Source of the DNA: Saprospiraceae bacterium
GTDB lineage: Bacteria > Bacteroidota > Bacteroidia > Chitinophagales > Saprospiraceae
DNA length: 48,200 nt
Assembly: GCA_020436935.1 (NCBI GenBank)
Contig: JAGQWX010000038.1
Span: forward strand, 1-48,200
Direction: 5' to 3'
Within the stretch, counting starts at the first letter, position 1; every line of letters begins with the position of its first letter. The notes beneath the pieces are model-generated. The model searched no databases and was not told the DNA's origin. It worked only from the letters and a program-made list of their open reading frames with translations. This document shows positions 6,118 through 34,654 of this stretch, piece after piece. A program made the translations under genes and the position numbers.

Positions 6118-6678
6118 TTGCATGAGTTTTGTTCAGGCTCACACAGTTTTAGCTTCTTAAAGCAAAAATAAATGTCGCTCACTAAAAAATATAAGGCGCG
6201 GGATTTGCCGACATTGTCAAAAAAGTTGTATCAATAAATGCACATAGCCAAACTTAAAGTCAATGTATAAAAAGAGGGTTCAGATTTCAGTGATAGTGAG
6301 CGAAGCAACGGAATGCCGGCTTTTGACATCGTAAATAATAAAACTTAAGCCAAAGAGTAAAAACTTGTGCACAAAAATCCAAGAAAGAATTATTGTCAAA
6401 AGACATAGGCTGAAGTTGCGAGAGCGAACGATCCCTAAGTGGAGCCATTAGATGCAATCAATGGCTCCACTTAGGGAATCACCTTAATCTGAACCAAGCC
6501 TTTTTTGTAACTTTTTTTGGCGAATGAAAAAAAGTTAGCACAATGCTAGATTTAAGGCAAAGCTATTTCTTAATGATAAATGTAAATATTACTGAATAGG
6601 CCCAATGAGAATGCATTCCAAAAGGAAAAGCAAAATCGAGTCATCCACAGCAATCACCTTAATCTGAACCAAGCCTTT
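6118..6678. repeat. Structured dispersed repeat, copy A (~560 bp)
   Basis: Aligns almost without gaps to 20781-21339 (a constant offset of 14661-14663 bases). Conserved blocks are ATAAGGCGCGGGATTTG at 6191, GGGTTCAGATTTCAGTGATA at 6276, CTTTTGACATCGTA near 6320, GTCAAAAGACATA near 6395, a 17 bp hairpin at 6433-6476, the 27 bp block beginning AATCACCTTAATCTG at 6477, a TAACTTTTTTT/AAAAAAAGTTA hairpin at about 6508-6537, and a second copy of the 27 bp block at 6652. The two 27 bp blocks are 175 bases apart in both copies although the sequence between has diverged. No ORF or transposase is present. It occupies most of the gene-free region 5889-6977. Confidence 0.8.
6433..6476. ncRNA. Covarying 17 bp hairpin in repeat copy A
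   Basis: Perfect 17 bp arms (6433-6449 and 6460-6476) around a 10-base loop, AGATGCAATC. Against copy B at 21094-21137 the only change is C6445-G6464 here versus A21106-T21125 there, which keeps the pairing. Conserved loop plus compensatory change suggests selection on structure, possibly as RNA; transcription and strand are unknown. Confidence 0.5.
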
Positions 6679-6902
6679 ATGCTCTAGCTTACGTAAGAAT
6701 TACAGAAATTTTCCAAAAGACAAGCATTCCTTCTCAGAATAACATTCGGCTACTTTTAGTCATGGTTTTGATTTCGATAAACTGTTTTCACAAAATGTAG
6801 GTTACAGATCAACACAACCGTCAAATAACCAATTCCCGGTTAAGCCGGCAAAAATAACAGGCCGGTGCTTACAATCACTCATAATATACATCATTACTTG
6901 AC

Positions 6903-6916
6903 ATGACTCCCGTCAT
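6903..6916. promoter_or_regulatory. Crp/Fnr-family-like palindrome ATGAC-N4-GTCAT
   Basis: A perfect 5+5 bp palindrome, ATGACTCCCGTCAT, centred about 68 bases upstream of the first gene of the PFOR-Rnf cluster. TGAC-N4-GTCA has the half-site spacing used by Crp/Fnr-superfamily regulators (Fnr TTGAT-N4-ATCAA; HcpR/Dnr types TTGAC-N4-GTCAA). A redox- or anaerobiosis-linked regulator would fit the operon, but no such regulator is encoded in the window. It is a single motif match. Confidence 0.35.
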
Positions 6917-6977
6917 AATGGTGCATGGTTTCAGATGCCTAATTTTAGATTTCGTTTAGCACAAAAACTAAAAAATC

Positions 6978-7355
6978 ATGGATAAGCATCAGGCAAACCA
7001 ACTCATATCTTCCGCCCACATCTTATTGCAGGGCGCTGAAGAAGAAGCCAACAGGTCTATCGAAGACAAGGTATCTTTTCTCATTTGTCACCATGCAAGA
7101 AAATCAACGATTTCTTTCCTGCAAGGCTTTCTGGCTGCCAATGAGTATGAAGGTTCTTCTGATCTGAGCATACAGGAATTGCTGGAGGTCTGTGCAAAAT
7201 ATGACCCCGCCTTTCTTGAAATCAATGTCAAAAATATGGTATGTGCAGGCCATCGCGACGACGGAGAATTTTGCCTCGACGATGACAAGGCCAATGGCTG
7301 CCTGGTGACTGCAAAAGCTGTAAGACAACACATCATGCACAGTCCCGTCTTATGA
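6978..7355 (+). CDS. HEPN-like small protein upstream of PFOR
   Basis: 125 residues, all helical in appearance. The spacing of ISSAHILLQGAEEEANR, VSFLICHHARKSTISFLQGF, LSIQELLEVCAKYDPAF resembles HEPN-domain proteins (helix, FL-C--A-K--FL helix, then LL--C---DP-F). Five cysteines (FLIC, EVC, MVC, EFC, NGC) are unusual for the fold. A terminal RQHIMH fits the loose R-x4-H HEPN nuclease pattern, but it sits at the extreme C-terminus and may be chance. The stop overlaps the PFOR start (ATGA at 7352-7355), so the two are probably translationally coupled and the small protein may assist or regulate the oxidoreductase. The function is inferred only from position. Confidence 0.65.
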   Translation: MDKHQANQLISSAHILLQGAEEEANRSIEDKVSFLICHHARKSTISFLQGFLAANEYEGSSDLSIQELLEVCAKYDPAFLEINVKNMVCAGHRDDGEFCLDDDKANGCLVTAKAVRQHIMHSPVL

Positions 7356-10300
7356 ACTGGTTTAAAAATCAAGTCAAAAATAAAAGGCAGGTCCCAACTG
7401 ACCTGCCACATTCATTCATGGTAAAACCTACATCAATGTTTGGCAAAAAAGAGCAACCCGTCGTAAAATATCCGGGTCAACGCATTGCATTGGATGGCAA
7501 CACAGCAGCCATCATGTGTGAAAGAGAATCTACTGACGCCGCAGGTGCCTACCCCATCACTCCTTCCACCCAAATGGGAGAATATTGGGCAGAAGCAGCT
7601 GCTGCTGGTCATTTGAACATCTCAGACAGACCCCTCATCTTTATCGAACCTGAAGGCGAACACGCCGCAGCAGCTGTAACAGCAGGCCTGTCCATGACCG
7701 GTCTGCGGGCTGCAAACTTTTCATCGGGACAGGGCATAGCCTATATGCATGAGTCACTTTATGCAGCAGTTGGTAAACGCCTGACGTACGTGCTCAACAT
7801 TGGTGCCCGCGCCATGACCAAATCCACGCTCAATGTACACGCAGGTCATGACGACTATCATGCCATTGACGATACAGGATTTTTCCAACTTTTTGCAAAA
7901 AATGCCCAGCACGTTGCCGACCTCAATATTTTGGCGCATAAAATCGCCGAACTCGCTTTGACTCCAGGCGTTATTGCACAAGATGGCTTCCTCACCACCC
8001 ACCTGATAGAATCGCTCAATCTTCCGGAAAGAGCACTGATCAGTGAATTTTTGGGACGCCCGGACGACATCATTCCCACACCAACGCCAGCCCAAAAACT
8101 CATATATGGCGAGACGCGAAGGAGAATACCTGAATTGTGGGACGTTGACAATCCACTCATGGCTGGAATCGTCCAAAACCAGGATGCGTACATGCAAAGC
8201 GTAGCGGCGCAGCGACCCTACTTTTTTGACCATATTCAGGATTTGACAGATCAGTCATTCGCAGCTTATGCTGCCCTCACCGGCAGACATTACTCCCGAG
8301 TAATGACCTATAAGACCGATGATGCAGACTACCTTATTCTTGGACAGGGCAGCGTTGTGACAAGCGCAGAAGTGGTGGCCGATTACCTGAGAGCAAGCCG
8401 GGGATTAAAAGTAGGAGTGGTGGACCTCGTGATGTTCAGGCCATTCCCTGCAGATCTGCTCAGCAAAATACTCAAAGGCAGAAAAGGCATCACCATATTG
8501 GAAAGACTCGACCAGCCTCTTGCAGCCGATGCTCCCATCACCCGTGAAGTACGCGCCATCATCAACAAATGCGTAGAAAATGGTCTTGTTGCCAACCAAA
8601 AACCATATCCAGAACTCGAAACCTATAAGTCAGGCGATGTACCACCCATTTATTCTGGTTCGTTTGGCATGGGCAGCCGTGACCTCCAGCCAGAAGGCAT
8701 CATTGGAGCCATAGAAAACATGCTTCCGGAAGGCAAGCACAAAAAACAATTCTATCTTTCAATAGATTTCATCCGGGACGCTCCGCACACACCCAAGCAG
8801 CGCCTTCACCAGGAATCCATCAGCGAAGCTTATCCCAAAGTAAAAGAACTGGCGATCAGGGGGTCTGAAAATCCTGACCTCATGCCAAAAGGTGCGATCA
8901 CGGTAAGATTCCACTCCATCGGAGGATGGGGAGCCATTACCACGGGTAAAAACCTGGCAATGACTTTGTTTGACCTGCTCAATTACGACATCAAAGCCAA
9001 CCCAAAATATGGTTCTGAGAAAAAAGGACAGCCCACGACCTACTATCTTGCAGCAGCACCGGAACCCATCAGAATCAACTGCGAATTTTTCTTTGTTGAC
9101 GTGGTATTGTCTCCGGACCCCAATGTGTTTAAACACACCAACGCTTTGGCGGGCTTGAAGAAAGGCGGATATTTCATCATCCAGAGTGATAAAACCAAGC
9201 CAGAAGAAGTATGGGCTGAAATTCCAAAACCTTACCAGAAAGTCATCATCGATCAGGACATCCACATCTGTTATATCGATGGTTTTAAAATTGCCAGAGA
9301 AGAAGCTACCGACCCTGAACTACAGCTCAGGATGCAAGGCATTGCCTTCCAGGGAGCCTTTTTCGCAGCTTCTCCGGTCATGGCCAATGCCGGACTTACA
9401 GAAGAAACCTTGCTCAAAGCCATTGAAGACCAGCTGCAGCACAAGTTTGGTGCTAAAGGTCAGCGCGTAGTGGAAGACAATATGCGGGTGGTAAAAAGAG
9501 GATTTACCGAAGTGGTTGAAATTAAAAATAAAAAAATCCTCGACGCCAAAGAAGAAAAAGAAATACTTAAAGCCGAGATTCCTATCCCTTCCATGCTGCA
9601 AAGCGCACCTGTCAGTGATTCAAAACTGAGCGATATCCATCGTTTTTGGGAACAAACAGGTTCTTTTTATCAGCAGGGCATGGGCAATGACAACATTACT
9701 GACCCATTCATAGGTCTGAGTCTTATGCCTGCTGTGAGTTCCGTATTCAGAGATATGACCGGCATCAGGTTTGAACATCCTGAATGGATACCCAACAATT
9801 GTACAGCTTGTGGCAAGTGTTATACCATTTGCCCCGACACAGCCATACCCGGATTGGTAAGTGAGCTTTCAGATGTCCTGGATACAGTTGTAAAAAGGGT
9901 GAGAAAAAACCACGACAAGCTGGAATATCTTCCGAAATATACCCGACAACTGGAAAGCAAAGCAAGAGCATTGTTCGCTGCTGATGGCAAAGAAGTTTCA
10001 GTCAACGATTTGATCCATGACGCCATCGAGTCCCTGATTGCAGAAAGTGGAAATACCAATGGATTGGCCACAGAGTTTGAATGGTTTAAGGAAGAACTGG
10101 GTGACTTCAAATTTGCACTCACCCGACCTTACTACGAACTGTTTGAAAAAGACCAGGCCAATTCAGGAGGGCTCTTCAGCATCACCATCAATCCTACCAC
10201 CTGTAAAGGCTGTATGGAATGTGTCAATGTTTGCGAAGACGATGCATTGCGCATAGTCACCCAGTCTGAAGAATCTGTTGTGAAATTGAGGAACGAATGG

Positions 10301-12355
10301 GAATTCTGGAATGACCTTCCTTCCACACCTGACAAGTTCAATAGGATAGAAAGTCTGGAGGAAAAAATAGGTCCGCTTGAAACCATATTGCTCAACAAAC
10401 AGGCCTATACCCAATTTGCCAGCGGTGACGGCGCCTGCCTGGGATGTTCAGAGAAATCCGTTGTCCACCTGTTTACCGCCACCGTTGAGTCGCTGATGCA
10501 ACCACGCATCAAAACCCATGTGGCCAAGTTGGACAACCTGACCAATCAGCTCGAAGCATACCTGCAGAAAAAGTTGCTTCAACAAGTGGACGTGACCGAT
10601 ACCGATTTGATGACCAGCATTCTGGCACAATCTCAAAATACGGACCTGACCATGGCAGAAATCGCCAGCAGGTTTGAATCCACAAGAGGCAAGGCACCGA
10701 TCGATCAGGAATGGCTGAGGGAAGTGAGTCAAATCCTTGCTCAGCTCAAAAAACTGAAATGGAAGTATACCACCGGAACAACCGGCAAAGGCAGGTCAAC
10801 CATGGGCATGTGTAACGCTACCGGCTGTACTTCAGTCTGGGGCAGTACATGGCCGTACAACCCCTACCCTTTCCCTTGGGCGAATCACCTGTTCCAGGAT
10901 TCTACTTCCATGGCCATGGGTATTTTTGAAGGCCACATGGCCAAGATGGCTGAAGGATTTAAAGCGATAAGAAAGGCGGAACTCATCCTCAAAGACGAAT
11001 ACAATGCCTCCAAGTCCAAAGAATTTTTCACCTACTTCACCTGGCATCAATTTACAGATGAAGAGTGGTTGCTATGCCCACCCGTTGTAGCACTCGGAGG
11101 TGACGGAGCAATGTATGACATAGGCTTCCAAAACCTCTCCAGAATGATGGCCTCTGGCAAACCCATCAAGGTCATAGTTGTGGACACGCAGGTATACTCC
11201 AATACGGGAGGTCAGGCCTGCACATCAGGATTCATCGGTCAGATTTCCGACATGGCCCAATACGGCAAAGTCTGGAAAGGTAAGCCTGAGCCAAGAAAAG
11301 AAATTGGGCTCATCGCCATGGCCCACAGGAATACCTTTGTCATGCAGGCGACCCTGGCCAATACGAGTCATCTGATAGAAGGCTTCATCGATGGACTCAT
11401 GGCCCGAAGACCGGCTTTGTTCAACGTATACACTACTTGTCAACCGGAGCATGGCGTAGCTGACGACCTGGGCGCTCACCAGGCAAAACTGGCCAATGAG
11501 TCCAGGGCATACCCCATATTCAAATACAATCCTGAACTCGGCATCAAAGTCAGGGAGGCTCTTGACATCACCGGCAATCCCGACATCGATAAACTTTGGC
11601 CTACTTATACTTTGAAATACCTTGAAAACGGCAGACAGAAGAAGATGGAATTGCCAATGACCTTTGCAGATTTCGCCATCACCGAGGCAAGGTTCAGAAA
11701 ACATTTCAGACAAGTACCACGCGATGCATGGAACGAAAACATGGTGCCGCTGGCAGAGTTCCTGGAGTTATCCAAAGATGATCGATCAGGAAAATATCCG
11801 TACATCTGGGCCATCAACAGGCAGCAAGCCCTCAACAGAGTGCTGGTCGACAGCACCATTGTAGATTCTTGCGAAGAAAGAAGAGACTTCTGGATATTGC
11901 TGAGAGATATGGCAGGAAATACAGAAGAACATGCTGCCTCAACCGCTGATATTGAACAAAAAGTTCGTACTGAAGTCGTCACGAAAATTGCCCAGGGATT
12001 GATGCAAATGGCGTCTAATGGCAATGCTGTTGAGCCGCTGCTGCAACTCTCCGGAAATGGTAACGGACATGATGCTGCGCCAGCCGCTAATGCAACAGCA
12101 AGCCAAAGCATGGGCCCGTGGCTGGAGACTCAGGATTGCTCTTCGTGTAATGAATGCATCAAAATCAACTCTAAAATCTTTGCCTACAACGAAGACAACA
12201 AAGCATACATCAAGGATCCTGACGGTGGACCATTTGAAGACATCGTTAAGGCCGCAGAGAAATGCACAGCAAGGGTCATCCATCCCGGATTGCCCAAAGA
12301 CGCAGGCATGAAGGACCACGACAAATGGGTAAAAAGAGCAGAAAAATTCAATTGA
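7352..12355 (+). CDS. nifJ: Extended pyruvate:ferredoxin/2-oxoacid oxidoreductase
   Basis: 1667 residues; canonical single-chain PFORs are about 1170-1230. It decarboxylates pyruvate or another 2-oxoacid to acyl-CoA and reduces ferredoxin. Domains in order: pyrimidine-binding half with DAAGAYPITPSTQMGEYW near residue 65; domain II near 325-430; gamma domain with VRFHSIGGWGAITTGKNLA near 515; 4Fe-4S motif CTACGKCYTICP near 816; second motif CKGCMECVNVC near 950; GDGACLGCSEK near 1027; TPP site with GGDGAMYDIGFQNL near 1248 and VYSNTGGQ near 1280. Two insertions stand out: about 130 residues between the ferredoxin motifs, and a helical stretch of about 100 residues after GACLGC. The C-terminus (about 1590-1667) adds a ferredoxin-like motif, CSSCNECIKINSKIF with a late Cys in EKCTARVIHPG. 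It overlaps the HEPN-like gene and is followed 10 bases later by rnfC. Confidence 0.93.
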   Translation: MNWFKNQVKNKRQVPTDLPHSFMVKPTSMFGKKEQPVVKYPGQRIALDGNTAAIMCERESTDAAGAYPITPSTQMGEYWAEAAAAGHLNISDRPLIFIEPEGEHAAAAVTAGLSMTGLRAANFSSGQGIAYMHESLYAAVGKRLTYVLNIGARAMTKSTLNVHAGHDDYHAIDDTGFFQLFAKNAQHVADLNILAHKIAELALTPGVIAQDGFLTTHLIESLNLPERALISEFLGRPDDIIPTPTPAQKLIYGETRRRIPELWDVDNPLMAGIVQNQDAYMQSVAAQRPYFFDHIQDLTDQSFAAYAALTGRHYSRVMTYKTDDADYLILGQGSVVTSAEVVADYLRASRGLKVGVVDLVMFRPFPADLLSKILKGRKGITILERLDQPLAADAPITREVRAIINKCVENGLVANQKPYPELETYKSGDVPPIYSGSFGMGSRDLQPEGIIGAIENMLPEGKHKKQFYLSIDFIRDAPHTPKQRLHQESISEAYPKVKELAIRGSENPDLMPKGAITVRFHSIGGWGAITTGKNLAMTLFDLLNYDIKANPKYGSEKKGQPTTYYLAAAPEPIRINCEFFFVDVVLSPDPNVFKHTNALAGLKKGGYFIIQSDKTKPEEVWAEIPKPYQKVIIDQDIHICYIDGFKIAREEATDPELQLRMQGIAFQGAFFAASPVMANAGLTEETLLKAIEDQLQHKFGAKGQRVVEDNMRVVKRGFTEVVEIKNKKILDAKEEKEILKAEIPIPSMLQSAPVSDSKLSDIHRFWEQTGSFYQQGMGNDNITDPFIGLSLMPAVSSVFRDMTGIRFEHPEWIPNNCTACGKCYTICPDTAIPGLVSELSDVLDTVVKRVRKNHDKLEYLPKYTRQLESKARALFAADGKEVSVNDLIHDAIESLIAESGNTNGLATEFEWFKEELGDFKFALTRPYYELFEKDQANSGGLFSITINPTTCKGCMECVNVCEDDALRIVTQSEESVVKLRNEWEFWNDLPSTPDKFNRIESLEEKIGPLETILLNKQAYTQFASGDGACLGCSEKSVVHLFTATVESLMQPRIKTHVAKLDNLTNQLEAYLQKKLLQQVDVTDTDLMTSILAQSQNTDLTMAEIASRFESTRGKAPIDQEWLREVSQILAQLKKLKWKYTTGTTGKGRSTMGMCNATGCTSVWGSTWPYNPYPFPWANHLFQDSTSMAMGIFEGHMAKMAEGFKAIRKAELILKDEYNASKSKEFFTYFTWHQFTDEEWLLCPPVVALGGDGAMYDIGFQNLSRMMASGKPIKVIVVDTQVYSNTGGQACTSGFIGQISDMAQYGKVWKGKPEPRKEIGLIAMAHRNTFVMQATLANTSHLIEGFIDGLMARRPALFNVYTTCQPEHGVADDLGAHQAKLANESRAYPIFKYNPELGIKVREALDITGNPDIDKLWPTYTLKYLENGRQKKMELPMTFADFAITEARFRKHFRQVPRDAWNENMVPLAEFLELSKDDRSGKYPYIWAINRQQALNRVLVDSTIVDSCEERRDFWILLRDMAGNTEEHAASTADIEQKVRTEVVTKIAQGLMQMASNGNAVEPLLQLSGNGNGHDAAPAANATASQSMGPWLETQDCSSCNECIKINSKIFAYNEDNKAYIKDPDGGPFEDIVKAAEKCTARVIHPGLPKDAGMKDHDKWVKRAEKFN

Positions 12356-12365
12356 GGCCGGGGAT

Positions 12366-13712
12366 ATGATGAACTTTCTGTTACATAACAAGGGAACATT
12401 CCACCACGGCATCCATCCTCCGGAGATGAAGGATGATACCAAGGCTTTGTCCATCAGGCAATTTCCTTTCCCACCTGTGCTGGTGCTGCCACTTTCACAA
12501 CACATTGGTGCAGCAGCCGAGCCTGTAGTGAAAGAAGGGCAGTCGGTGCAAAGGGGCCAGCTGATTGCGAAAGCCAACGGGTATATGTCGGTGCCATTGC
12601 ACGCCCCTGTTTCAGGCAAGGTCCGAAAGATAGACTATGTACCCACCATTTCAGGTAAAAAAACGATGGGCATATATCTGGAGAGTTTCCCCTCTTCCGG
12701 CCAAGAAGTCATTGAGGGCAAGTGCATAGATCTCTATACTTCAAGTCCTTCTCAAATTCTGGCCGGTATCCAACAAGCAGGAATTGTTGGACTTGGCGGA
12801 GCAGCCTTCCCGACCCATGTAAAACTTGCCATTCCGGAAGGAAAGTCGTGCAAATATCTCATCATCAATGGCGTGGAATGCGAGCCCTACCTTACTACGG
12901 ACCACCGGGTCATGCTCGAACAATACAACGACATATTTATGGGCATTCGCTACCTCATCAAGGCCCTCGATCCTGAGAAAGTCATCATAGGTATTGAAGC
13001 CAACAAAGAGGATGCATACGACATGCTCAAGCGCAAAAAACCTTTGGATATGGAAGTTGAACTGGCTTTGCTGCCTGTAAAATATCCACAGGGCGCAGAG
13101 AAAATGCTGGTCACGGCAGTCACCGGACATGAGGTTCCTTCAGGTAAGCTGCCCATAGAAGTAGGAGCAGTGGTCATCAATGTCGCCACAACGGCAGAAA
13201 TAGGACGCTTGTTGCCCCACGGCAGGGGAATTCAGGAAAGGGTCATTACCATCACAGGTCCAGGCATCGCCAAAAAAGGCAATTATCTGATTACCATTGG
13301 CACGCCGCTTCGCTTTATATTGGAGCAAGTGGGAGCTGAAGGTGTCCAGGAAGTATTCATGGGAGGACCCATGATGGGCGTGTCGGTATCAAATCTCGAT
13401 ATGCCCATTACCAAAGGCACTTCGGGTATCGTCGCTTTCAGGCAGGAGCAAACACTTGCAGACCGGCCTGAGTTCGCATGCATCCGATGTGGTGCCTGTC
13501 TGGACGCCTGCCCTTTGTCGCTCAACCCCTCACAATTGGGGGTATTGGCCAAAAACGAGGCATATGACCTCATGGCCTCAGATCACCATCTGATGGATTG
13601 TTTTGAGTGCGGCTCATGTTCATATGTTTGCCCTTCAAACATTCCCCTCGTTCAGTATTTCCGGCTGGCCAAAACCATCGTGAGAAAAAGACAAACAAAA
13701 CCCACGGTATGA
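12366..13712 (+). CDS. rnfC: Rnf complex subunit RnfC
   Basis: 448 residues, the usual RnfC length; a peripheral subunit that in Rnf complexes binds NADH/FMN and passes electrons to the membrane subunits. Visible are the N-terminal barrel-sandwich region (NKGTFHHGIHPPEMK; GYMSVPLHAPVSGKVRKID near 80), the Rossmann-like nucleotide/FMN region with GIVGLGGAAFPTHVKL near 140 and NGVECEPYLTTDHRVM near 170, an SLBB-like segment near 300, and two 4Fe-4S motifs, CIRCGACLDACP near 372 and CFECGSCSYVCPSNIP near 412. It starts at tandem ATG codons 10 bases after the PFOR stop and overlaps rnfD by ATGA. Placement directly after PFOR suggests delivery of PFOR-reduced ferredoxin to this Rnf. Confidence 0.95.
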   Translation: MMNFLLHNKGTFHHGIHPPEMKDDTKALSIRQFPFPPVLVLPLSQHIGAAAEPVVKEGQSVQRGQLIAKANGYMSVPLHAPVSGKVRKIDYVPTISGKKTMGIYLESFPSSGQEVIEGKCIDLYTSSPSQILAGIQQAGIVGLGGAAFPTHVKLAIPEGKSCKYLIINGVECEPYLTTDHRVMLEQYNDIFMGIRYLIKALDPEKVIIGIEANKEDAYDMLKRKKPLDMEVELALLPVKYPQGAEKMLVTAVTGHEVPSGKLPIEVGAVVINVATTAEIGRLLPHGRGIQERVITITGPGIAKKGNYLITIGTPLRFILEQVGAEGVQEVFMGGPMMGVSVSNLDMPITKGTSGIVAFRQEQTLADRPEFACIRCGACLDACPLSLNPSQLGVLAKNEAYDLMASDHHLMDCFECGSCSYVCPSNIPLVQYFRLAKTIVRKRQTKPTV

Positions 13713-14740
13713 AAGAGTTGACCTTACAAATAAGAACATCACCTCACCTCAAAACAACATTGAGCACTGATACCATTATGCTCCATGTCATTCTTTCTCT
13801 GATACCAGTGGTCATTTTTGCGGTCTATGCCTTTGGATGGAGTGGTCTGACATTGATGGTGACTACGACCCTCTCCTGTGTCCTGACAGAATACATATTA
13901 AACGGCAAGGACAAAGGGACAAAAGCGCTCAAGGACTGGTCGGCAGTCTTGACAGGGCTTCTTTTGGCCCTGACTTTACCACCAGGATTCCCGCTGTGGA
14001 TGGCATTTGTTGGTGGCATGGTAGCCATCGCTCTCGGCAAGTTTGTTTTCGGGGGACTGGGACAAAACCTGTTTAATCCGGCATTGGTCGGCAGGGCGAT
14101 GTTGCAGGCTGCTTTTCCGGTGGCGATAACCACGTGGACAAATGCCATGGCGCCTGATCGTTTTTCAAGCTTCATAGCTTCAAGTCTTACTCTTCCTTTT
14201 TTAGAACCCATAAAAGCCGATGCCATATCCGGAGCTACGCCACTGTCTGCCTTTAAGTTTGATAAAATCACCACGGATGTTCAGGACCTGGCGCTTGGTT
14301 TTACCTCAGGATCACTCGGAGAGACATGTGCTGTGCTGATTGCACTGGGGGGACTTTATCTTGCAGTGAGAAAGATGCTCAACTGGAGAATTCCTGTGGG
14401 CATTTTGGGTACGGTGGCCGTGTTCACCGGACTATTGTATCTGATTGACCCCTCAAAATATCCTGCTCCCCTGGCCATGCTTTTTTCAGGAGGGCTGATG
14501 CTGGGGGCAGTGTATATGGCTACAGACATGGTATCGAGTCCGCTTTCCAGCATCGGCGTGTGGATTTACAGCTTTGTTATTGGGCTTTTGGTGGTATTGA
14601 TCAGGATTTGGGGTGGATTGCCGGAGGGAGTGATGTATGCCATATTGTTTGGCAATGCTCTGGCCCCGGTACTTGATAAGACCATCCCAAAAAGAATATA
14701 TGGAATGCCTTCTGTAAAAACCAAAACAGCAAAGGCATGA
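13709..14740 (+). CDS. rnfD: Rnf complex subunit RnfD
   Basis: 343-residue integral membrane subunit with about nine to ten hydrophobic helices. The motif DAISGATPLSAF near residue 175 carries the Thr that binds FMN covalently in RnfD/NqrB. TGLLLALTLPPGFPLW and FGGLGQNLFNPALVGRA are family hallmarks. The ATG at 13709 overlaps the rnfC stop as ATGA and begins MKELTLQIRTSPHLK, a typical RnfD start; the longer open frame from 13607 lies inside rnfC and is not used. It ends overlapping rnfG by ATGA. Confidence 0.95.
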   Translation: MKELTLQIRTSPHLKTTLSTDTIMLHVILSLIPVVIFAVYAFGWSGLTLMVTTTLSCVLTEYILNGKDKGTKALKDWSAVLTGLLLALTLPPGFPLWMAFVGGMVAIALGKFVFGGLGQNLFNPALVGRAMLQAAFPVAITTWTNAMAPDRFSSFIASSLTLPFLEPIKADAISGATPLSAFKFDKITTDVQDLALGFTSGSLGETCAVLIALGGLYLAVRKMLNWRIPVGILGTVAVFTGLLYLIDPSKYPAPLAMLFSGGLMLGAVYMATDMVSSPLSSIGVWIYSFVIGLLVVLIRIWGGLPEGVMYAILFGNALAPVLDKTIPKRIYGMPSVKTKTAKA

Positions 14741-15435
14741 AGACGAATTCAAATACCCAACAGAGCTCAAACTCATTCCAACTGTTTAAATCTATGGTTG
14801 GCATTGGGCTGATTTGCGCAGCATTGATTGCAACCGTTTACCAATCAACGGCAGAAAGAATCAAAAAACTCAAAGCCGAAGCACTCGAGCAGGCTGTTTA
14901 TCAGGTGATTCCCGGTATGAAAGAAAAAAAGACATTCATGGTCAATAATGAGGGGGAAGTTGTTCCCGTACAGGATGGCAGCGCCCCGGCAGAGCTCATT
15001 TTTGCAGGATATGGTGAAGATGGCCGTTTTTTGGGTTTGGCCATTCAAGCGAGTGGTATGGGTTTCGCAGATGTCATTAAAGTCATCTATGGTTATGACC
15101 CGCAAAAGCAATTGGTGATAGGCTACAGGGTGCTCGACAATAAAGAAACCCCGGGACTTGGGGACAAAATAGAAAAGGATGAAGATTTCCTGGCCAATTT
15201 CAAGGCGCTCGATGTTTCCCTCACCGATGATCGTAAAACCATAAAAAATACAGTCACCACCGTCAAAAACGGACAAAAGAAAAACGCATGGGAAATCGAC
15301 GGCATCACCGGCGCTACCATTTCATCAAGAGCCATCGGTGCCATCTTCCAGGAAAGCACGCAAAAATGGATGCCGATCATTGCTGACAACATCCAGGTAT
15401 TTACCAACGATACAAGCCTCAGCCATGGTCAATAA
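14737..15435 (+). CDS. rnfG: Rnf complex subunit RnfG
   Basis: 232 residues: a single N-terminal membrane anchor (SMVGIGLICAALIATVYQ) followed by a periplasmic FMN-binding domain. The covalent flavin site is ITGATISSRAI near residue 192, matching the (S/T)GAT(S/T) motif of RnfG/NqrC. Upstream in the domain are GMGFADVIKVIYGYD and NKETPGLGDKIEKDEDF, both characteristic of the family. Translation starts at the ATGA overlap with rnfD. The end overlaps the rnfE start by 11 bases, continuing the tightly packed C-D-G-E-A order. Confidence 0.94.
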   Translation: MKTNSNTQQSSNSFQLFKSMVGIGLICAALIATVYQSTAERIKKLKAEALEQAVYQVIPGMKEKKTFMVNNEGEVVPVQDGSAPAELIFAGYGEDGRFLGLAIQASGMGFADVIKVIYGYDPQKQLVIGYRVLDNKETPGLGDKIEKDEDFLANFKALDVSLTDDRKTIKNTVTTVKNGQKKNAWEIDGITGATISSRAIGAIFQESTQKWMPIIADNIQVFTNDTSLSHGQ

Positions 15436-16078
15436 AAAAGCGACAACGACAAAAACAGGCTTCTTCGATCAGATGGCCTCGGCACCTTCAACCGATGAGT
15501 TCATCAAAGGACTCTGGAGAGAGAATCCCATATTTGTGCAGGTTCTGGGAATGTGTCCCACGCTGGCAGTAACAAATTCTCTGACCAATGCACTGGCCAT
15601 GGGCCTGGCAACCACCTTTGTACTCGTGGCTTCCAATGGACTCATCTCGTCTTTGCGCAATTTCATCCCCAAACAAGTGAGGATCGCCACCTACATCCTC
15701 ATCATTGCCACATTTGTAACGCTTATTGATTATGGCATTCAGGCGACCAGCGTGGCGCTGCACAAGAGTCTCGGGGCTTTTATTTCGCTGATCGTGGTCA
15801 ATTGTCTGATCCTGGGAAGAGCCGAAGCTTTTGCTTCAAAAAATAACGTTGGTCTATCGCTTTTGGATGGCCTGGGCATGGGCCTTGGATTCACCTTTGC
15901 ACTCTCGTGTCTGGGTGCGCTCAGGGAGATTATGGGCAACGGCAGTCTGCTGAATGTTCAAATTTTCGGGGAAGCTTACCAGGAATGGATCGTGATGATA
16001 TTGCCTGCTGGAGGTTTCTTCACACTGGCCATATGGTTGTTATTTTTTAATGTTTTGAAAAAGAAAAAAATGGCATGA
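15425..16078 (+). CDS. rnfE: Rnf complex subunit RnfE
   Basis: 217-residue membrane protein with six predicted helices, homologous to NqrD. NPIFVQVLGMCPTLAVTNS near residue 33 contains the conserved Cys-Pro of helix 1 which, with its partner in RnfA, helps hold the intramembrane iron centre of Rnf/Nqr complexes. FIPKQVRIATYILIIATFVT and GLGFTFALSCLGALREIMGNG (which carries the second conserved Cys) are typical. The ATG at 15425 overlaps rnfG by 11 bases; the open frame from 15338 is internal to rnfG and rejected. The end overlaps rnfA by ATGA. Confidence 0.94.
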   Translation: MVNKKATTTKTGFFDQMASAPSTDEFIKGLWRENPIFVQVLGMCPTLAVTNSLTNALAMGLATTFVLVASNGLISSLRNFIPKQVRIATYILIIATFVTLIDYGIQATSVALHKSLGAFISLIVVNCLILGRAEAFASKNNVGLSLLDGLGMGLGFTFALSCLGALREIMGNGSLLNVQIFGEAYQEWIVMILPAGGFFTLAIWLLFFNVLKKKKMA

Positions 16079-16659
16079 CACACGAATCGCTTTGGCAAAT
16101 ATTCATCAATGCCAGCCTGGTCAACAATTTTGTGCTGGCGTATTTTCTGGGCATTTGTCCATTTCTCGGTGTTTCCGGCAAAATGGAAACGGCCACAAAA
16201 ATGGGTGTTGCCGTAACTTTTGTCATGGTCATCAGTGCCATCAGCGCCTATGGCATTCACAAAGTCCTGACCATGATCCAGGCACCCTTCCTTGAACTGA
16301 TCAGCTACATTGTGGTCATCGCGGCGACGGTGCAATTGGTGGAAATGTTCATTAAAAAAGCAAGTCCTGCTTTGTTTAAGGCACTCGGCATATTCCTACC
16401 CCTGATCACGACCAACTGCGCCATTCTGGCGGTAGCCTTATTCCAAACCAACAAAGGATATGGCTTTCTTGAAAGCATCGTATACGCACTTGGCGCTGGT
16501 ACAGGATTTACCCTAGCCTTGCTTCTTATGGCGGGAGTAAGAGAAAGGGCTGATCTCGCCACTGTACCCGGCATTGTCAAAGGGACCATACTGACCCTAT
16601 TCATTGCTGGCATTTTATCATTAACATTTATGGGCTTTGCAGGCCTTGGAACCCAATAA
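16075..16659 (+). CDS. rnfA: Rnf complex subunit RnfA
   Basis: 194 residues, six predicted helices, homologous to NqrE and pseudo-symmetric with RnfE. NNFVLAYFLGICPFLGVSGK near residue 17 and LPLITTNCAILAVALF near 103 contain the conserved cysteines of the intramembrane iron centre. GAGTGFTLALLLMAGVRERAD near 141 is the conserved loop before the last helix. Initiates at an ATGA overlap with rnfE. The usual gene order would place rnfB nearby; here two extra genes intervene, which is the noteworthy feature of this operon. Confidence 0.95.
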   Translation: MTHESLWQIFINASLVNNFVLAYFLGICPFLGVSGKMETATKMGVAVTFVMVISAISAYGIHKVLTMIQAPFLELISYIVVIAATVQLVEMFIKKASPALFKALGIFLPLITTNCAILAVALFQTNKGYGFLESIVYALGAGTGFTLALLLMAGVRERADLATVPGIVKGTILTLFIAGILSLTFMGFAGLGTQ

Positions 16660-16670
16660 ATATCAAGCTT

Positions 16671-16853
16671 ATGTTCTCATTTATTCTTGGATTTACTTTT
16701 ATCATTTTGGCAATGTCGCTGTGGATTTTCATTCAAAACCGCTGGAAGGCAGCTTTTTCAGAAGAATACGACGAAGAAGATGCACTGGCGAACAGATCAG
16801 ATTGTCATTCGTGCGGTAATTGTTCTAAACAATGCAAAACCAAATCACATTAA
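16671..16853 (+). CDS. 60-aa cysteine-motif membrane protein, NqrM-like
   Basis: 60 residues: one N-terminal membrane helix (FILGFTFIILAMSLWIFIQ), an acidic linker (EEYDEEDA), then four closely spaced cysteines, CHSCGNCSKQC (C-x2-C-x2-C-x3-C), and a short basic tail. The gene begins 11 bases after rnfA and 28 bases before the reductase gene. The layout (helix, an AMS phrase, C-terminal cysteines) resembles NqrM, the small membrane protein required to install the iron centre between NqrD and NqrE, which are homologues of RnfE and RnfA. A role in maturing or supplying iron to this Rnf complex is inferred; no homology search was possible. A frame-overlapping longer ORF starting at 16687 is rejected, because the reductase start at 16882 is the conserved one. 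Confidence 0.7.
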   Translation: MFSFILGFTFIILAMSLWIFIQNRWKAAFSEEYDEEDALANRSDCHSCGNCSKQCKTKSH

Positions 16854-16881
16854 TTCATTTGCAATTTCAAAAACATACATC

Positions 16882-17739
16882 ATGGCAACGATATCAGATT
16901 TTTCAAAAGAAAGGAAGTTTCAGGCAGTCATCAAAAATACGTCCCGCCTCACTCCCGAAAACACCGACGAAGTAAGGGAAATTGTCATCGAGGTGAAGGA
17001 TCCAGAATTTCATTGCAGTGTCAATCAAAGTTTTGGGGTATTGGTAGCTTCCAATGGTGAATTTGGCAACGCCTACCACCACAGATTGTATAGCGTGGCT
17101 GATCTCCCGGAGTCAGGTGACAACAGGACAAGATTGACCATGCTCGTCAAGAGGTGTTATTACATCGATGACTTCAATGGCGAAAAATATTCGGGCATCG
17201 CTTCCAATTACCTGTGCGACAGGAAAGAAGGAGATCTCATCACCATCACAGGGCCGCACAGCCTGCCATTCGAAGTTCCGGAAGACCATACCGCCAATCT
17301 CATCCTCATCGGCATGGGCACCGGCATTGCACCCTTTAGAGCTTTCATTAAACACATCTACAAAAACATTCCTGACTGGCAGGGGCAGGTGCGCTTGTTT
17401 TATGGGGCCAGAAGTGGTCTGGAATTGCTATATCTCAACGACCAGGACGGAGATCTGACCAACTACTACGACAAGGATACATTTGAAGCTTTCCACGCTT
17501 TGAGTCCTCGTCCACACATGGGAGATCCGATCGCCATCGATCAGGCCCTCATTACCCGCGCAAGTGAAATCGTACACCTGTTGTCGCTGTCAAATACCTA
17601 CATCTACGTGGCCGGATTCAAAAACATCAAAGAAAATCTGGACAAGACCTTTGCAAAAATTCTCGGTTCCAAAGAAAAATGGGAGACAAGAAAAGCTGAA
17701 CTGATCGCCGGAAGAAAGTGGGCAGAGATCATTTATTGA
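16882..17739 (+). CDS. Ferredoxin-NADP+ reductase-like flavoprotein
   Basis: 285 residues with the plant-type FNR layout. The FAD site is HHRLYSVAD near residue 68 with a second contact in SGIASNYLCDRKEGD near 107; the NADP-binding Rossmann loop is GMGTGIAPFRAFI near 144, followed by FYGARSGLELLYL. YVAGFKNIKENLDKTF lies near the end, and the last residue is Tyr, as in FNRs where a terminal aromatic stacks on the flavin. It would exchange electrons between ferredoxin and NADP(H). Lying between rnfA and rnfB, it gives PFOR-reduced ferredoxin a second outlet besides Rnf. The ATG at 16882 is chosen because the conserved protein begins there (MATISDFSKERKF). It could also be an accessory subunit of the Rnf complex. 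Confidence 0.85.
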   Translation: MATISDFSKERKFQAVIKNTSRLTPENTDEVREIVIEVKDPEFHCSVNQSFGVLVASNGEFGNAYHHRLYSVADLPESGDNRTRLTMLVKRCYYIDDFNGEKYSGIASNYLCDRKEGDLITITGPHSLPFEVPEDHTANLILIGMGTGIAPFRAFIKHIYKNIPDWQGQVRLFYGARSGLELLYLNDQDGDLTNYYDKDTFEAFHALSPRPHMGDPIAIDQALITRASEIVHLLSLSNTYIYVAGFKNIKENLDKTFAKILGSKEKWETRKAELIAGRKWAEIIY

Positions 17740-17791
17740 TCCACAAATCAAATGCTCATGTACTTTACCACGATACCAAACAAGCCGTAAA

Positions 17792-18655
17792 ATGATCTGG
17801 ATAGCAATTATAGCCTTGGGTGTGCTCACCGTATTTCTGACCACAATGCTGGCAGTCGGACAAAAAAAATTGTATGTTTTTGAAGACCCGCGCATAGATC
17901 AGGTAGAGGAAATGTTGCCCCACGCCAATTGCGGAGCGTGCGGTCATCCGGGGTGCAGGCCATTTGCTGAGGCTTTGGTGGCAGGAAAAGTACTCCCCGG
18001 AAAGTGTTCTGTAAGTTCTGAGGAGGGAAGGCTCAAAATTGCTGCTTTCCTCGGAGTTGACGCTGGTGCTGAAGAAAAAAAAGTGGCCAGACTGGCATGT
18101 GCGGGAGGCAACAATGTGGCCATAAAACGAGCTTCCTATACTGGTTTGCAAAGTTGTAAAGCTGCAGCTCTGGTATCCGGAGGAGGTAAAGGTTGTTTTT
18201 GGGGATGTCTGGGATTGGGGGATTGTGAGGTCGTTTGTGACTTTGATGCCATCACCATGAATGAATATGGCCTTCCTGTCGTGGATGTCAACAAGTGCAC
18301 TGCCTGCGGTGATTGCGTAGAAACGTGCCCAAAAGACTTGTTTTCAATTCAAGCCATCAGCCACCAGCTCTGGGTCAATTGCAAAAATCTCGAAAAAGGT
18401 GATGCTATACTTGAAGAATGTGAGGTGGCATGTACGGCTTGTGGCCGCTGCGCCATGGATGCACAGGACGGACTCATCACCATGGCGTTCAATCTGCCGG
18501 TGGTCAATTATGCCAAAAACCACAAAACTATGTTACCAATTCAGCGATGCCCTACGGGGGCTATCGTCTATATTGATGATCAAAATGGTGTGATTAAAGG
18601 AGAATCCAGCAAGAAGATAATTCGGAAGGAAGAAAGGGAATTGGGGAGATCCTGA
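17792..18655 (+). CDS. rnfB: Rnf complex ferredoxin subunit RnfB
   Basis: 287 residues. An N-terminal membrane helix (IAIIALGVLTVFLTTMLAVG) is followed by the RnfB Fe-S domain CGACGHPGCRPFAEALVAGK near residue 47 with a distal Cys in PGKC, then a cysteine-rich region (LQSCKAAA, GKGCFWGCLGLGDCEVVC) and a ferredoxin motif, CTACGDCVETCP, near 169, plus further cysteines in ECEVACTACGRCAMDA and QRCPTGAI. It collects electrons from ferredoxin for the Rnf pump. It starts 52 bases after the reductase gene, a looser junction than in the rest of the operon. The stop at 18655 is followed by the palindromic terminator. Confidence 0.94.
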   Translation: MIWIAIIALGVLTVFLTTMLAVGQKKLYVFEDPRIDQVEEMLPHANCGACGHPGCRPFAEALVAGKVLPGKCSVSSEEGRLKIAAFLGVDAGAEEKKVARLACAGGNNVAIKRASYTGLQSCKAAALVSGGGKGCFWGCLGLGDCEVVCDFDAITMNEYGLPVVDVNKCTACGDCVETCPKDLFSIQAISHQLWVNCKNLEKGDAILEECEVACTACGRCAMDAQDGLITMAFNLPVVNYAKNHKTMLPIQRCPTGAIVYIDDQNGVIKGESSKKIIRKEERELGRS

Positions 18656-18680
18656 TCAGATATTCATTTTTTTTCGCGAA

Positions 18681-18724
18681 AAAAAAAGGTAGAGACGCAA
18701 TGCATTGCGTCTCTACCTTTTTTT
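18681..18724. terminator. 44 bp perfect palindrome, bidirectional terminator
   Basis: Two perfect 22-base arms meet at 18702/18703: A7 followed by GGTAGAGACGCAATG, mirrored to give T7 on the right. An RNA from either strand would form a GC-containing stem followed by a U-run. It lies between the convergent ends of rnfB (18655) and the GerW-like gene (18820). A partial extra copy of the right arm (GCGTCTCTACC) follows at 18725, and a separate 8 bp hairpin TTTTGCGT/ACGCAAAA sits at 18787-18806. Confidence 0.75.
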
Positions 18725-18819
18725 GCGTCTCTACCACATATTTTTGGGGTCAGTACCATTTTTTACGAAAATACGACGCCCATTTTTTTTGCGTAGACAC
18801 GCAAAACGTTACCAGGTCG

Positions 18820-19194
18820 CTACACCTCTACCAATTCTTCACGCATTTTTCTGGTTTCCAGGTATTTGGAAATCAGGTCAGGCACTTTCTCAAATGCTGC
18901 GCTTAAGCCGGTATGGTTTTTAGTGCTGATAAAATTGATTTGATCGCCTCTTGAAACGAGGAAACCAATGGGGTCAATTCCAAGTCCTGCACCTACACCG
19001 CCACCATTGCCGTGACCTTGTTTGACAGCTTCGCCTTCGCCGGCGCCACCACCAAATCCGGTACCCATTCGTATCACAGGAATACAATTGAATTCTCCCA
19101 ATTTGAAAGCTTCACCAACAATGGTTTCTGTGCGGGCTTCAGATCTCAAAAAATCAGTAATTTGACCCAGCATTTCTTTAAATTGAACTTCCAT
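18820..19194 (-). CDS. GerW/YtfJ family protein
   Basis: 124 residues, matching the family length. The N-terminal helix (FKEMLGQITDFL), VVGEAF-type strand (TETIVGEAFKLGEFNCIPVI), the Gly-rich centre (MGTGFGGGAGEGE; GNGGGVGAGLGIDPIGFLVS) and a C-terminal helical piece (VPDLISKYLETRK) are the signature of GerW (Bacillus YtfJ), first described in spore formers but present in many non-sporulating bacteria. The minus-strand neighbour upstream, 17 bases away, resembles DUF2953/YtfI, the partner found beside ytfJ in Bacillus, so the pair is conserved across phyla. Its biochemical role is not established. Confidence 0.85.
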   Translation of the reverse strand: MEVQFKEMLGQITDFLRSEARTETIVGEAFKLGEFNCIPVIRMGTGFGGGAGEGEAVKQGHGNGGGVGAGLGIDPIGFLVSRGDQINFISTKNHTGLSAAFEKVPDLISKYLETRKMREELVEV

Positions 19195-19211
19195 CTTATA
19201 TTTTTTAAAGA

Positions 19212-19715
19212 TTATATAATCGCTCTTAGTATCCTGATCATTCTGTTTTCTACCACCAATTCCAATTCATTATCCCCGCCAAAAACAAATTGTACATCTC
19301 TGTTCCGGCCATTGATCAGGAATCGGATAGGATACAACAGACCATTGCAATAATAGTCACCTGTATCTATCCTCAGCTTTAGATTCCTGACCTTGAATGT
19401 TCGGAATAGTCTCCACATCTTCCTGCCGGACAGGGAAAAACGGTTTTTCTTGCTTTTCACCTGAGGCTGGATTTTTTTAGTGCTTCGCTGCGTTATTTGT
19501 TCCAGTAAATCTATTTTGAATGTTTTGCTGAACAGCATGTTGTGCATATGCACAAAAAGATCAGTATCCATTCTTCTGAAATCAACCGATACTACGCGAA
19601 AAAGACTAAGTTGATACATATGCCTTTTGGTATCAATGCTCAACAAAATGGGCGCTAAAATGACCCACAACAACAAGCTCAGCAGAACTAAAATTATGAT
19701 GGTAAAAACTGCCAC
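19212..19715 (-). CDS. DUF2953-like (YtfI-like) membrane-anchored protein
   Basis: 167 residues: an N-terminal membrane helix (IIILVLLSLLLWVILAPILLSI), a beta-rich stretch, a basic linker (QPQVKSKKNRF), and a C-terminal part with LKLRIDTGDYYCNGLLYPI and VQFVFGGDNELELVVENRM. In DUF2953 proteins a short helix, basic linker and similar G-D-----N--L-P- pattern occur; the sequence is divergent, so the assignment leans on the neighbouring GerW/YtfJ gene 17 bases downstream. The two probably form one transcript and act together at the membrane. Confidence 0.55.
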   Translation of the reverse strand: MAVFTIIILVLLSLLLWVILAPILLSIDTKRHMYQLSLFRVVSVDFRRMDTDLFVHMHNMLFSKTFKIDLLEQITQRSTKKIQPQVKSKKNRFSLSGRKMWRLFRTFKVRNLKLRIDTGDYYCNGLLYPIRFLINGRNRDVQFVFGGDNELELVVENRMIRILRAII

Positions 19716-20014
19716 TTTTAACGATTTACAGAAGCTAAAATTTGAACTTCATAGAATCAGAAAAAACCTATAGCTTAAGAAAAATTATAATCTTAAAGCT
19801 TGTTATTTTCTTGATATCTGGTCCAAATGTGTAGAAATTGAAGTCTTGCTGTCAATGACCCAGGACAGTGTTAAGAGTGATCTGAAAAGATAATAGATTT
19901 CGATTTTTTTGGTCAAAATAAGTACAGGTCCAAAGCTTGACGAAGCTCGGTAAAAATTAAAGAAAGACTAGGTTGGTAGAAGAATCTGTCAAATAAATAC
20001 GGGGGAATATTTAT
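19716..20014. other. AT-rich intergenic region without recognised features
   Basis: About 300 bases between the YtfI-like gene start and the Rof-like gene end. No ORF, strong hairpin or repeat was recognised; it presumably carries the promoter of the YtfI-GerW pair on the minus strand. Confidence 0.5.
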
Positions 20015-20236
20015 TTAAAATCTTGGTTCAACATTGACCTGATCCAGTCGATATACCGTTCCATTGCTGAAGCTTAGGTATTCCGCTCCTTCTTTGGTAA
20101 AAATATCGACAATTTGACCCCTATGCCTGGCATGGGAGGTTCTCTCTGTCAAAACGAGCTCGGTCCTTCTCATTTGCCAGAGCACATACTGGTCATATAG
20201 ACCACATGCAACTACTTTGTATTCGCTCACATTCAT
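20015..20236 (-). CDS. Rof-like (Rho-binding antiterminator family) protein
   Basis: 73 residues, the size of Rof proteins. The pattern YKVVACGLYDQYVLW, a helix-strand (TELVLTER), GQIVDIFTKEGAEYLSFSNG and VYRLDQV parallels the Rof family (C--YD at the start, L------- G-I-D-----EYL and RLD-I at the end), an Sm-like fold that inhibits transcription termination factor Rho in E. coli. Identification is from the motif pattern only. It stands alone; a hairpin lies upstream at 20264-20312. Confidence 0.55.
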   Translation of the reverse strand: MNVSEYKVVACGLYDQYVLWQMRRTELVLTERTSHARHRGQIVDIFTKEGAEYLSFSNGTVYRLDQVNVEPRF

Positions 20237-20263
20237 GGATTATAACTTTAAATACATTTATAA

Positions 20264-20312
20264 AAAATGAAAACACCCCACAGAGAATGATCCGAAAGGT
20301 GTTTTTCATTTT
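20264..20312. terminator. Hairpin upstream of the Rof-like gene
   Basis: AAAATGAAAACACC and GGTGTTTTTCATTTT form a 14-15 bp stem with one bulge around a 20-base loop. On the minus strand it is followed by a T-run, so it could end transcription coming from the remnant at 20352-20495 before the Rof-like gene. Confidence 0.4.
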
Positions 20313-20351
20313 AACTTAAATAGAACTGCGAGAATTTTTAAAGCACCAGCT

Positions 20352-20495
20352 TTAAGATTTCTTTTTAAACCAATGGGACATTGATTGACCATTTTTATCA
20401 TCAATAATGAGGTCAAATCTATTACCGCTTGGTTTTCCTTTGGATACTAACCGCAAATAAGCTATTGATAACAGCTTAATTACCTGCTTAATCAC
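20352..20495 (-). pseudogene. Short ORF or gene remnant
   Basis: Minus-strand open frame of 47 codons from a GTG (in-frame stop just upstream) ending KPSGNRFDLIIDDKNGQ then MSHWFKKKS and TAA. Composition looks protein-like, with a plausible basic end, but no family was recognised. Bases 20399-20433 match 4524-4558 at 30 of 35 positions in the same reading frame (PSGNRFDLIIDDKN here, PSRNRFHHIIDVKN there). It may be a remnant of a duplicated gene or a genuine small gene. Confidence 0.3.
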
Positions 20496-20633
20496 TTTTT
20501 ACTGCATTACAAAGAACCAACTTATTCTCTTGATATGAAACTAGGGGAAACCCCGAATTTGTGGTGATTGTTCTTTTTTCAGCAGATGGAACCCACAACA
20601 AAAGCATTCCTCGCAGGAATAGCATAAGGCTAT

Positions 20634-20672
20634 ACTTTTTGGCTTGACCCAAAAAGTACCAAAAAAGTCAAG
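20634..20672. repeat. Overlapping inverted repeats of the ACTTTTTGG type
   Basis: ACTTTTTGG (20634-20642) pairs with CCAAAAAGT (20649-20657), and CTTGAC (20643-20648) pairs with GTCAAG (20667-20672), giving two mutually exclusive hairpins. Similar strings are frequent between Bacteroidota genes, so it is probably a common intergenic repeat. Confidence 0.5.
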
Positions 20673-20780
20673 CGCTGAATATTTTTCTTAACGCTCGCTC
20701 TCACTTCATTTAGCTAAGCTTAAAAAACTCGCCCCTTGTCTAACGTTTCCTGTATTTTTTTCTTGAGGCAACCATTTCTC

Positions 20781-21339
20781 TTGCTTGAGTTTCGTTCAGG
20801 CTCATACAGTTTTAAGCTCTTAACGCTAAATGAAGCGTCGCTCTCTAAAAAATATAAGGCGCGGGATTTGTCGAGAGGGTCAAAAAAAATGCATTTATAA
20901 ACTCATCGAGCCAAACTTAATGACAATGGATAAAAAGAGGGTTCAGATTTCAGTGATAGTGAACGAAGCTATGGAATGGCGGCTTTTGACATCGTAGATC
21001 CATAAACACAAGAACGGAAACATAGAATATAGCAATTACCTCAAATCGAAGATAGGTCAAAAGACATAGCCTGGAATAGCGAAAGTGAGCGATCCCTAAG
21101 TGGAGACATTAGATGCAATCAATGTCTCCACTTAGGGAATCACCTTAATCTGAACCAAGCCTTTTTTGTAACTTTTTTTGGCGATTGAAAAAAAGTTAGC
21201 ACAATGCCAGCTGTACGGCAAAGCCTATTGCCTGAGTGGAAATATGCATTACAAAAATGGCCAATTGAGCATGCTCGCGATATATCAAAAGCCACTTTTA
21301 TGCACCCGCAGCAATCACCTTAATCTGAACCAAGCCTTT
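20781..21339. repeat. Structured dispersed repeat, copy B
   Basis: Second full copy of the element at 6118-6678, in the same orientation, with the same blocks: ATAAGGCGCGGGATTTG at 20854, the GGGTTCAGATTTCAGTGATA block at about 20939, CTTTTGACATCGTA at 20983, GTCAAAAGACATA at 21056, the 17 bp hairpin at 21094-21137, the 27 bp block at 21138 and again at 21313 (175 apart, as in copy A), and the TAACTTTTTTT/AAAAAAAGTTA hairpin between them. The interior segment between 20997 and 21055 shares almost no sequence with copy A but is within two bases of the same length. Confidence 0.8.
21094..21137. ncRNA. Covarying 17 bp hairpin in repeat copy B
   Basis: Arms 21094-21110 and 21121-21137 pair perfectly around the loop AGATGCAATC. 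A21106-T21125 replaces the C-G pair of copy A (6445-6464), a compensatory substitution. Whether it is transcribed is not visible from sequence. Confidence 0.5.
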
Positions 21340-21400
21340 TTTGTAAAAAGTATAAGGCGCGGGATTTGTCTTGGGTGTCAAAAAAGTTGCTTTTATAAAG
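21340..21400. repeat. Third, truncated copy of the dispersed repeat
   Basis: Directly after the second 27 bp block of copy B, a new start of the element appears (ATAAGGCGCGGGATTTGTC, then TCAAAAAAGTTGC and TTATAAA), corresponding to about 6191-6236 of copy A. It shows that units can join end to start, as in a tandem array or a recombination junction. Confidence 0.65.
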
Positions 21401-21465
21401 GTATATTTGACTTAAGAAAAAGGAGTTATGCCGAAATCTTGAATCGCATAAAAGAGAACCTCATA

Positions 21466-34508: not shown

Positions 34509-34654
34509 AATTTCAATTTGTTTTAATTCTAAATGTTATTGAAGTTCTGTTCAAACCTAGCAAAATAAACAGTACATATTTCATTAAAATCATTTTCTTT
34601 CTACGATAACAGGAAATTTTTCATTTTCGGCGCCACAAACAAAATCAAAAAATT

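Follow-up and report, generated by a model that had tools for sequence, protein, structure and literature searches.

A stretch of 48,200 nucleotides from a Saprospiraceae bacterium (the window, which is the whole of contig C113 of the source assembly; 5.8 Mb, 181 contigs) carries two copies, A and B, of a dispersed repeat. Its conserved part, a single long hairpin in which the internal loops are conserved too, is held by compensatory changes while the paired sequences themselves change. The repeat family apparently consists of mobile, non-coding DNA elements that occur in several Bacteroidota groups. Taking class and role together, we consider it an even bet that these are gene-less, non-autonomous mobile elements of the MITE kind that carry a transcribed hairpin at their 3' end.

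The constant offset between the two copies, as given in the initial annotation, was reproduced by a repeat search: 6118-6349 and 20781-21012 lie 14663 bases apart (82% identical) and 6395-6563 and 21056-21224 lie 14661 apart (92% identical), which confirms the two-base net shift. The 27-base block AATCACCTTAATCTGAACCAAGCCTTT likewise starts at 6477 and 6652 in copy A and at 21138 and 21313 in copy B, with a spacing of 175 in both, and the truncated third start reported behind copy B lies at 21344-21406 (78% identical to 6183-6245). Using copy A as a BLAST query, we found copy B with an E value of 5.4e-133 and 79% identity over query positions 1-561; hence, the likeness of the copies is not due to chance. 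The repeated stretch around copy B spans 20594 to 21406.

Other parts of the initial annotation needed refinement. The repeat of about 560 bases is real but is not a natural unit: the block joins a partial upstream hairpin domain to the whole of the core hairpin, with a small AT hairpin, a spacer and another right arm behind it. The interior stretches said to be unshared look like diverged homologous spacer once more copies are aligned. Copy A contains no ORF of at least 80 aa and in this sense no transposase; the end of copy B is overlapped by a 97-aa TTG ORF (21178-21471, + strand) without a Pfam match. Across loci, an ORF of at least 100 aa covers the core in 3 of 40. The parts of the copies, in source contig positions, are as follows.

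6118..6276, + strand: copy A domain I remnant, 5'-truncated, with spacer (repeat and motif maps; fuller domain I in copy B, G005 and G092)
6192-6207, + strand: island TAAGGCGCGGGATTTG in the copy A domain I remnant (repeat and motif maps)
6277..6495, + strand: copy A core hairpin (covariation within the genome and across genera; model matches; letters checked)
6277-6286/6486-6495, 6290-6294/6478-6482, 6305-6309/6415-6419, 6315-6317/6408-6410 and 6320-6327/6395-6402, + strand: copy A core stems (covariation)
between 6328 and 6394, + strand: copy A core apical loop, variable (covariation alignments)
6432..6477, + strand: copy A extra hairpin TCCCTAAGTGG...CCACTTAGGGA in the 3' side of the core (letters checked)
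6501..6506, + strand: copy A T-tract, five bases past the core stem (same strand in 37/43 copies)
6509..6536, + strand: copy A small AT hairpin AACTTTTTTT-GGCGAATG-AAAAAAAGTT (letters checked; counterparts in other genomes)
6540..6651, + strand: copy A spacer from the AT hairpin to the second right arm (motif maps)
6652..6678, + strand: copy A second right-arm block, 27 bases, start of a further partial unit (repeat and motif maps)
20594..20939, + strand: copy B upstream domain I (motif map, RNAalifold, letters checked)
20634-20657, + strand: hairpin ACTTTTTGGCTTGACCCAAAAAGT within copy B domain I (letters checked)
20940..21156, + strand: copy B core hairpin, outer stem 20940-20949/21147-21156 (covariation, model match, letters checked)
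21093..21138, + strand: copy B extra hairpin, with GACATT/AATGTC instead of GCCATT/AATGGC (letters checked)
21162..21197, + strand: copy B T-tract (21162-21167) and AT hairpin (21170-21197) (T-tract count, letters checked)
21313..21339, + strand: copy B second right-arm block (repeat search, letters checked)
21344..21406, + strand: truncated further start, domain I island (repeat search, family D7)

The core fold is supported by covariation at three depths. Among ten source-genome copies, the 18 middle-stem pairs are 98.9% paired and four of them changed on both sides; the covariation score was reached by none of 500 shuffles and the count of four pairs by 102 of 500. One stem occurs in this genome as GCAAC/GTTGC, as GCTAT/ATAGC (the second pairing type, that of the copy B core) and as GCAAT/ATTGC, while copy C144 breaks the pairing. 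Aligning seven source-genome copies with three from G008, a genome of another genus, gave both-side changes in 13 of 33 pairs (score 0.349 vs 0.124), with the extra hairpin cut out of six source-genome rows; this hairpin is missing from source-genome copy C160c and from the G008 copies. The outer arms read GTCTGCTTA/TAAGCAGAC in G008 where the source genome has GGTTCAGATT/AATCTGAACC.

Broader alignments extended this result, both of them fitted to the model structure and so biased towards it. Alignment A8, with 35 distinct rows, is 94.0% paired and scores 0.420 vs 0.133; both sides changed in 28 of its 33 pairs (176 cells). A10 (16 representatives from nine genomes) has compensatory changes in 28 of 33 pairs and 131 cells, with a score of 0.644 vs 0.193 when shuffled; in A10, the outer stems of the two window rows are taken from the extra hairpin, and this counts against the compensatory tally. 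The number of further pair types in A10 was matched by 49 of 500 shuffles, and any of the other four measures by none. Sliding the partner columns by 1-3 gave scores of at most 0.085. Mean identity in A10 is 79% over the 49 internal-loop columns and 69% over the 66 paired columns. Hence, the covariation that the initial annotation had seen in a single pair reaches well beyond it.

The core also occurs in other genomes. BLAST with the window repeat found no match in 59 relatives, five of them of the same genus. Covariance model R1 found two copies in G008 (E 2.8e-17 and 1.5e-14), and BLAST within that genome added a further, third core and one fragment. Of 395 other genomes of the order, G074, G282, G364, G374 and G080 gave strong matches to model R2; out of 394 other genomes of the class, G092 and G726 matched R3 strongly, and the two samples may overlap. 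Including the source, at least nine genomes from six genera and three families bear the core, and most genomes scanned with the models gave no match. Since the best 6-7 candidates per genome were scored under strict filters, absences and copy numbers from these searches are lower bounds.

Weak model matches (E 7e-4 to 0.8; G007, G026, G045, G050, G344, G526, G724 and G770) were treated as chance: reading the G007, G526, G724 and G770 loci showed no core motifs, the G344 locus lacks the core arms, and a second search of G026, G045 and G050 gave no match at E 0.01. A DNA pattern for one form of the core found 27 stretches in a collection of named species genomes, 17 in Saprospiraceae MAG SJ85, 8 in an Aureispira-labelled MAG and 2 in Saprospiraceae MAG UBA7687; judging by their equal coordinates, these MAGs are probably G074, G282 and G374. 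An exact scan of this collection, in which the source or very near genomes are possibly absent, gave no left arm; hence, the exact left-arm letters do not travel. Copy B had no match among plasmids, where the G092 unit had one 59-base match (a Haliscomenobacter plasmid), and viral contigs gave no match to one pattern. No known Rfam family reached its gathering score in the window, and in six core-bearing loci searched at E up to 1 the only Rfam match was mir-146, below the cut-off and outside the core. Judged mostly by title and the opening of the abstract, the open-licence literature held no description that we recognised as the core-hairpin family.

In three other genomes (G074, G092 and G008), the core lies within units of 0.4-0.5 kb that have TIRs and unrelated flanks and, in some copies, target duplications of 8-9 bp. 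Hence, these units are MITE-like, and the core, which sits well inside their TIR ends as judged by position only, is not simply the end of an IS, an alternative left open by the initial annotation. The TIR sequences vary between genomes while the fold is constant. SJ85 units carry the TIR GTGTGTATAACAAATTGCAC (20 bp in G074); six of the 17 SJ85 loci have both ends, five of these have flank, and two of the five have exact 9-bp duplications. A search of G074 with this TIR gave 55 matches vs 1 for the control. The six G092 copies have common ends and unrelated flanks, five of them measuring 472-480 bases and one 421 between CTGAG and its counterpart; by eye, the 8 bases outside ACTGA match at 8/8 in one copy and at 6-7/8 in four. 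G008 has one 9-bp duplication by a scripted test and one of 8 bp by eye.

Overall, the scripted test, applied to 39 chosen copies with enough flank, showed that 4 of 29 copies from other genomes had a TIR together with an exact duplication of 8-10 bp, compared to 8 of 1256 mismatched pairs. None of the 15 copies from G080, G282 (including the named MAG), G374 and G726 had a TIR or a target duplication. In the source genome, neither 14 clusters nor the 10 copies of the scripted test gave a TIR or a target duplication; the sole match among the 10 lies inside copy B, in its own AT-rich repeats, and was rejected. An autonomous partner was not seen in G074, where a reading by eye of 56 listed TIR places, most of them near contig ends, gave no inward pair more than about 0.43 kb apart on one contig. 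The initial annotation had proposed a structured RNA or a structured non-autonomous mobile unit; both structure and mobility are supported, and the checks it set for itself left it standing.

The source genome holds far more than the two copies first seen. With copy A as query, BLAST scored 40 of 52 candidates and gave at least 51 pieces, spread over 21 contigs; 12 of these contigs carry a piece no more than 300 bases from an end. Exact matches to the left arm GGTTCAGATTTCAGTGATAG number 19; allowing up to three mismatches gives 24 places, one of which is the right arm read backwards, leaving 23 left arms, compared to 3 for a reversed-pattern control. Model R3, run on retrieved loci, scored 16 source-genome copies at E <1e-10. 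Many copies are truncated, and as mosaics they combine several hairpin modules, in the order domain I or the TGGTTTCGACTCCGCTCAACCACC hairpin, core, AT hairpin, spacer of about 110 bases and another module; in some, a second insert type replaces the inner hairpin. A further large hairpin, CCCCTCTT...CGGGGTGTTGT, forms a separate module of these mosaics and was found only in the source genome among 100 genomes. Two G364 loci (L173 and L178) have cores with a hairpin module inserted at about the position where source-genome copies hold the second insert type, and both inserts share the opening ATGACTGA; an exchange of modules between genera is possible. A CCTGCC... palindrome is inserted in the part with the T-tract and AT hairpin at L160 (G008) and at L185 and L189 (G282).

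Upstream of the core, domain I is predicted to fold into another large hairpin in the copies of G005, G092 and the source genome (RNAalifold, run with no shuffle control); the G092 copies are too alike for compensatory changes to show. The entire order of domain I, core and AT hairpin is found within one unit in G092, and a stretch of about 50 bases near the start of domain I has matches in 26 of 100 genomes, source included. The nearest relative, G005, has its own dispersed repeat (loci L110-L116) that matches domain I and in which model R3 found no core. By eye, domain I resembles an inverted relative of the core; since R3 had no match in the G005 loci, we do not claim this kinship. In G053 (L121, about 980-1500), three tandem copies of a short repeat carry a similar AT hairpin and are possibly a distant relative.

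A run of five or more T within 18 bases after the stem is on the + strand in 37 of 43 copies and on the other strand in 6. Of 39 loci with two flanking ORFs, both genes run in one direction in 23, and the core lies with transcription in 18 of these and against it in 5 (two-sided sign test, about 0.01; the choice of ORFs was mechanical); copies in both counts are not independent. A one-sided T-tract and a biased orientation are at odds with a fold that matters as DNA, that is, with the same mobile element carrying a cruciform or single-stranded hairpin that a protein recognises in transposition or replication, by analogy with the hairpins of REP/RAYT or IS200/IS605. This reading, which we regard as unlikely though not negligible, draws its strength from the pairs themselves: 880 of 925 cells are Watson-Crick and 13 are G-U (1.4%), whereas six tRNAs from these loci have 7.4% (10/135; Fisher p 2e-4). 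With weak rows and the outermost pair left out, these 13 G-U cells compare with 5 A-C, which leans towards RNA (p 0.10); with weak rows included, the counts are 19 and 10. By eye, domain I and the core also look like inverted versions of each other, with an AT hairpin at each outer end, and copy A folds better than shuffles on both strands (z -4.02 on + and -4.67 on -). A strict terminator scan of copy A, for a GC-rich stem directly before a T-tract, found none where 0.8 were expected, and the single G726 match (best 6-7 candidates per genome scored) sits between trpG and trpD, a position that would be costly for a strong terminator. Against a DNA fold, the source-genome RAYT gene lies in another repeat array and the modules lie near neither a RAYT nor an IS200-like gene; in addition, HUH transposition would not be expected to give TIRs with 8-9 bp duplications. 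On balance, a fold that acts as RNA is weakly favoured.

The scarcity of G-U pairs could also arise without any function. If the copies were MITE debris in which one arm is corrected from its partner by template switching within palindromes, the arms would be perfectly Watson-Crick and G-U pairs few, as observed, and the many truncated mosaics would fit as well; such a history leaves unexplained both the internal loops conserved across families and the one-sided T-tract, and we think it improbable. Conserved loops and strong covariation would suit a family of host regulatory RNA genes that is not mobile. Common ends, unrelated flanks, TIRs and some target duplications speak against this explanation, to which we give very little credence; moreover, most scanned genomes have no match, and at the single orthologous site compared G005 carries no copy, although its upstream gene is also different there.

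In the mobile element with a transcribed 3' hairpin that we prefer, a transposase supplied in trans would move the unit by its TIRs. A unit inserted behind a gene would be transcribed together with it, and the + strand transcript would fold into the long 3' hairpin, followed by a U-tract and the second hairpin. The folded 3' hairpin may then end or stabilise the transcript, for which reason insertions in the co-transcribed direction would be tolerated best. In the source genome, units probably piled up, swapped hairpin modules and formed mosaics. More tentatively, the folded nucleic acid and not the ends may be the lasting part, the core having persisted across Bacteroidia families while arms were rewritten one pair at a time and TIRs were exchanged between lineages; with the TIRs, the transposase presumably was exchanged too.

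The closest known systems include bacterial MITEs and the ERIC, Correia and RUP elements. The usual picture of bacterial MITEs is one of IS ends enclosing disposable filling and limited to a strain or genus, and MITECca01 of Cardinium fits this description. The present family shares their common features of being gene-less, short, mostly intergenic and multicopy, with TIRs and duplications in G074, G092 and G008. In contrast, its filling is conserved, with strong covariation across three families. Its kind is MITE-like, and the unusual part is that families share the folded inside and not the ends. MITECca01 is about 240 bp and derives from an IS982-family element, and its authors did not find it in other Cardinium strains (PMC9769881); unlike it, the window family has a folded inside common to families and TIRs that differ by genome. 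BrickBuilt of Porphyromonas gingivalis resembles the window family in kind, being MITE repeats in Bacteroidota that break assemblies (PMC5771137). The covariance model allows such repeats to be annotated in Bacteroidota drafts, where they are located at contig ends, and makes the RNA or DNA nature of the fold directly testable.

The family also resembles intrinsic terminators in having a stem and then a T-tract on one strand, but its stem is far larger, the T-tract is 2-6 bases off the stem and a second AT hairpin lies behind. With REP, REPIN and BIME elements and their RAYT it has in common intergenic imperfect palindromes, mosaic arrays and a possible inverted pairing of two hairpin units; it differs in its far larger hairpin (about 110-220 bases), in the TIRs and duplications of three genomes and in having no RAYT adjacency. 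A RAYT-driven REP family was rejected, as another array accompanies the RAYT-like gene at C141:11784-12125 and neither Y1 gene has the modules around it. That array, at L143 2803-3750 (G000:C141), adjoins the RAYT-like Y1 transposase gene, consists of units of about 215 bases with GCTTTAGC-type hairpins and is unrelated to the window repeat. The window itself holds a different REP-like hairpin, the AATCCCGAAGGGAT palindrome (family D8), in four short copies at 34634-35075, and a stretch similar to it lies at L143 9463-9503. Elsewhere in the window, a 782-aa ORF (26530-28878) carries a long repeat of the Gly-X-Y (collagen-like) type, recognised by eye from its nine-base periodicity.
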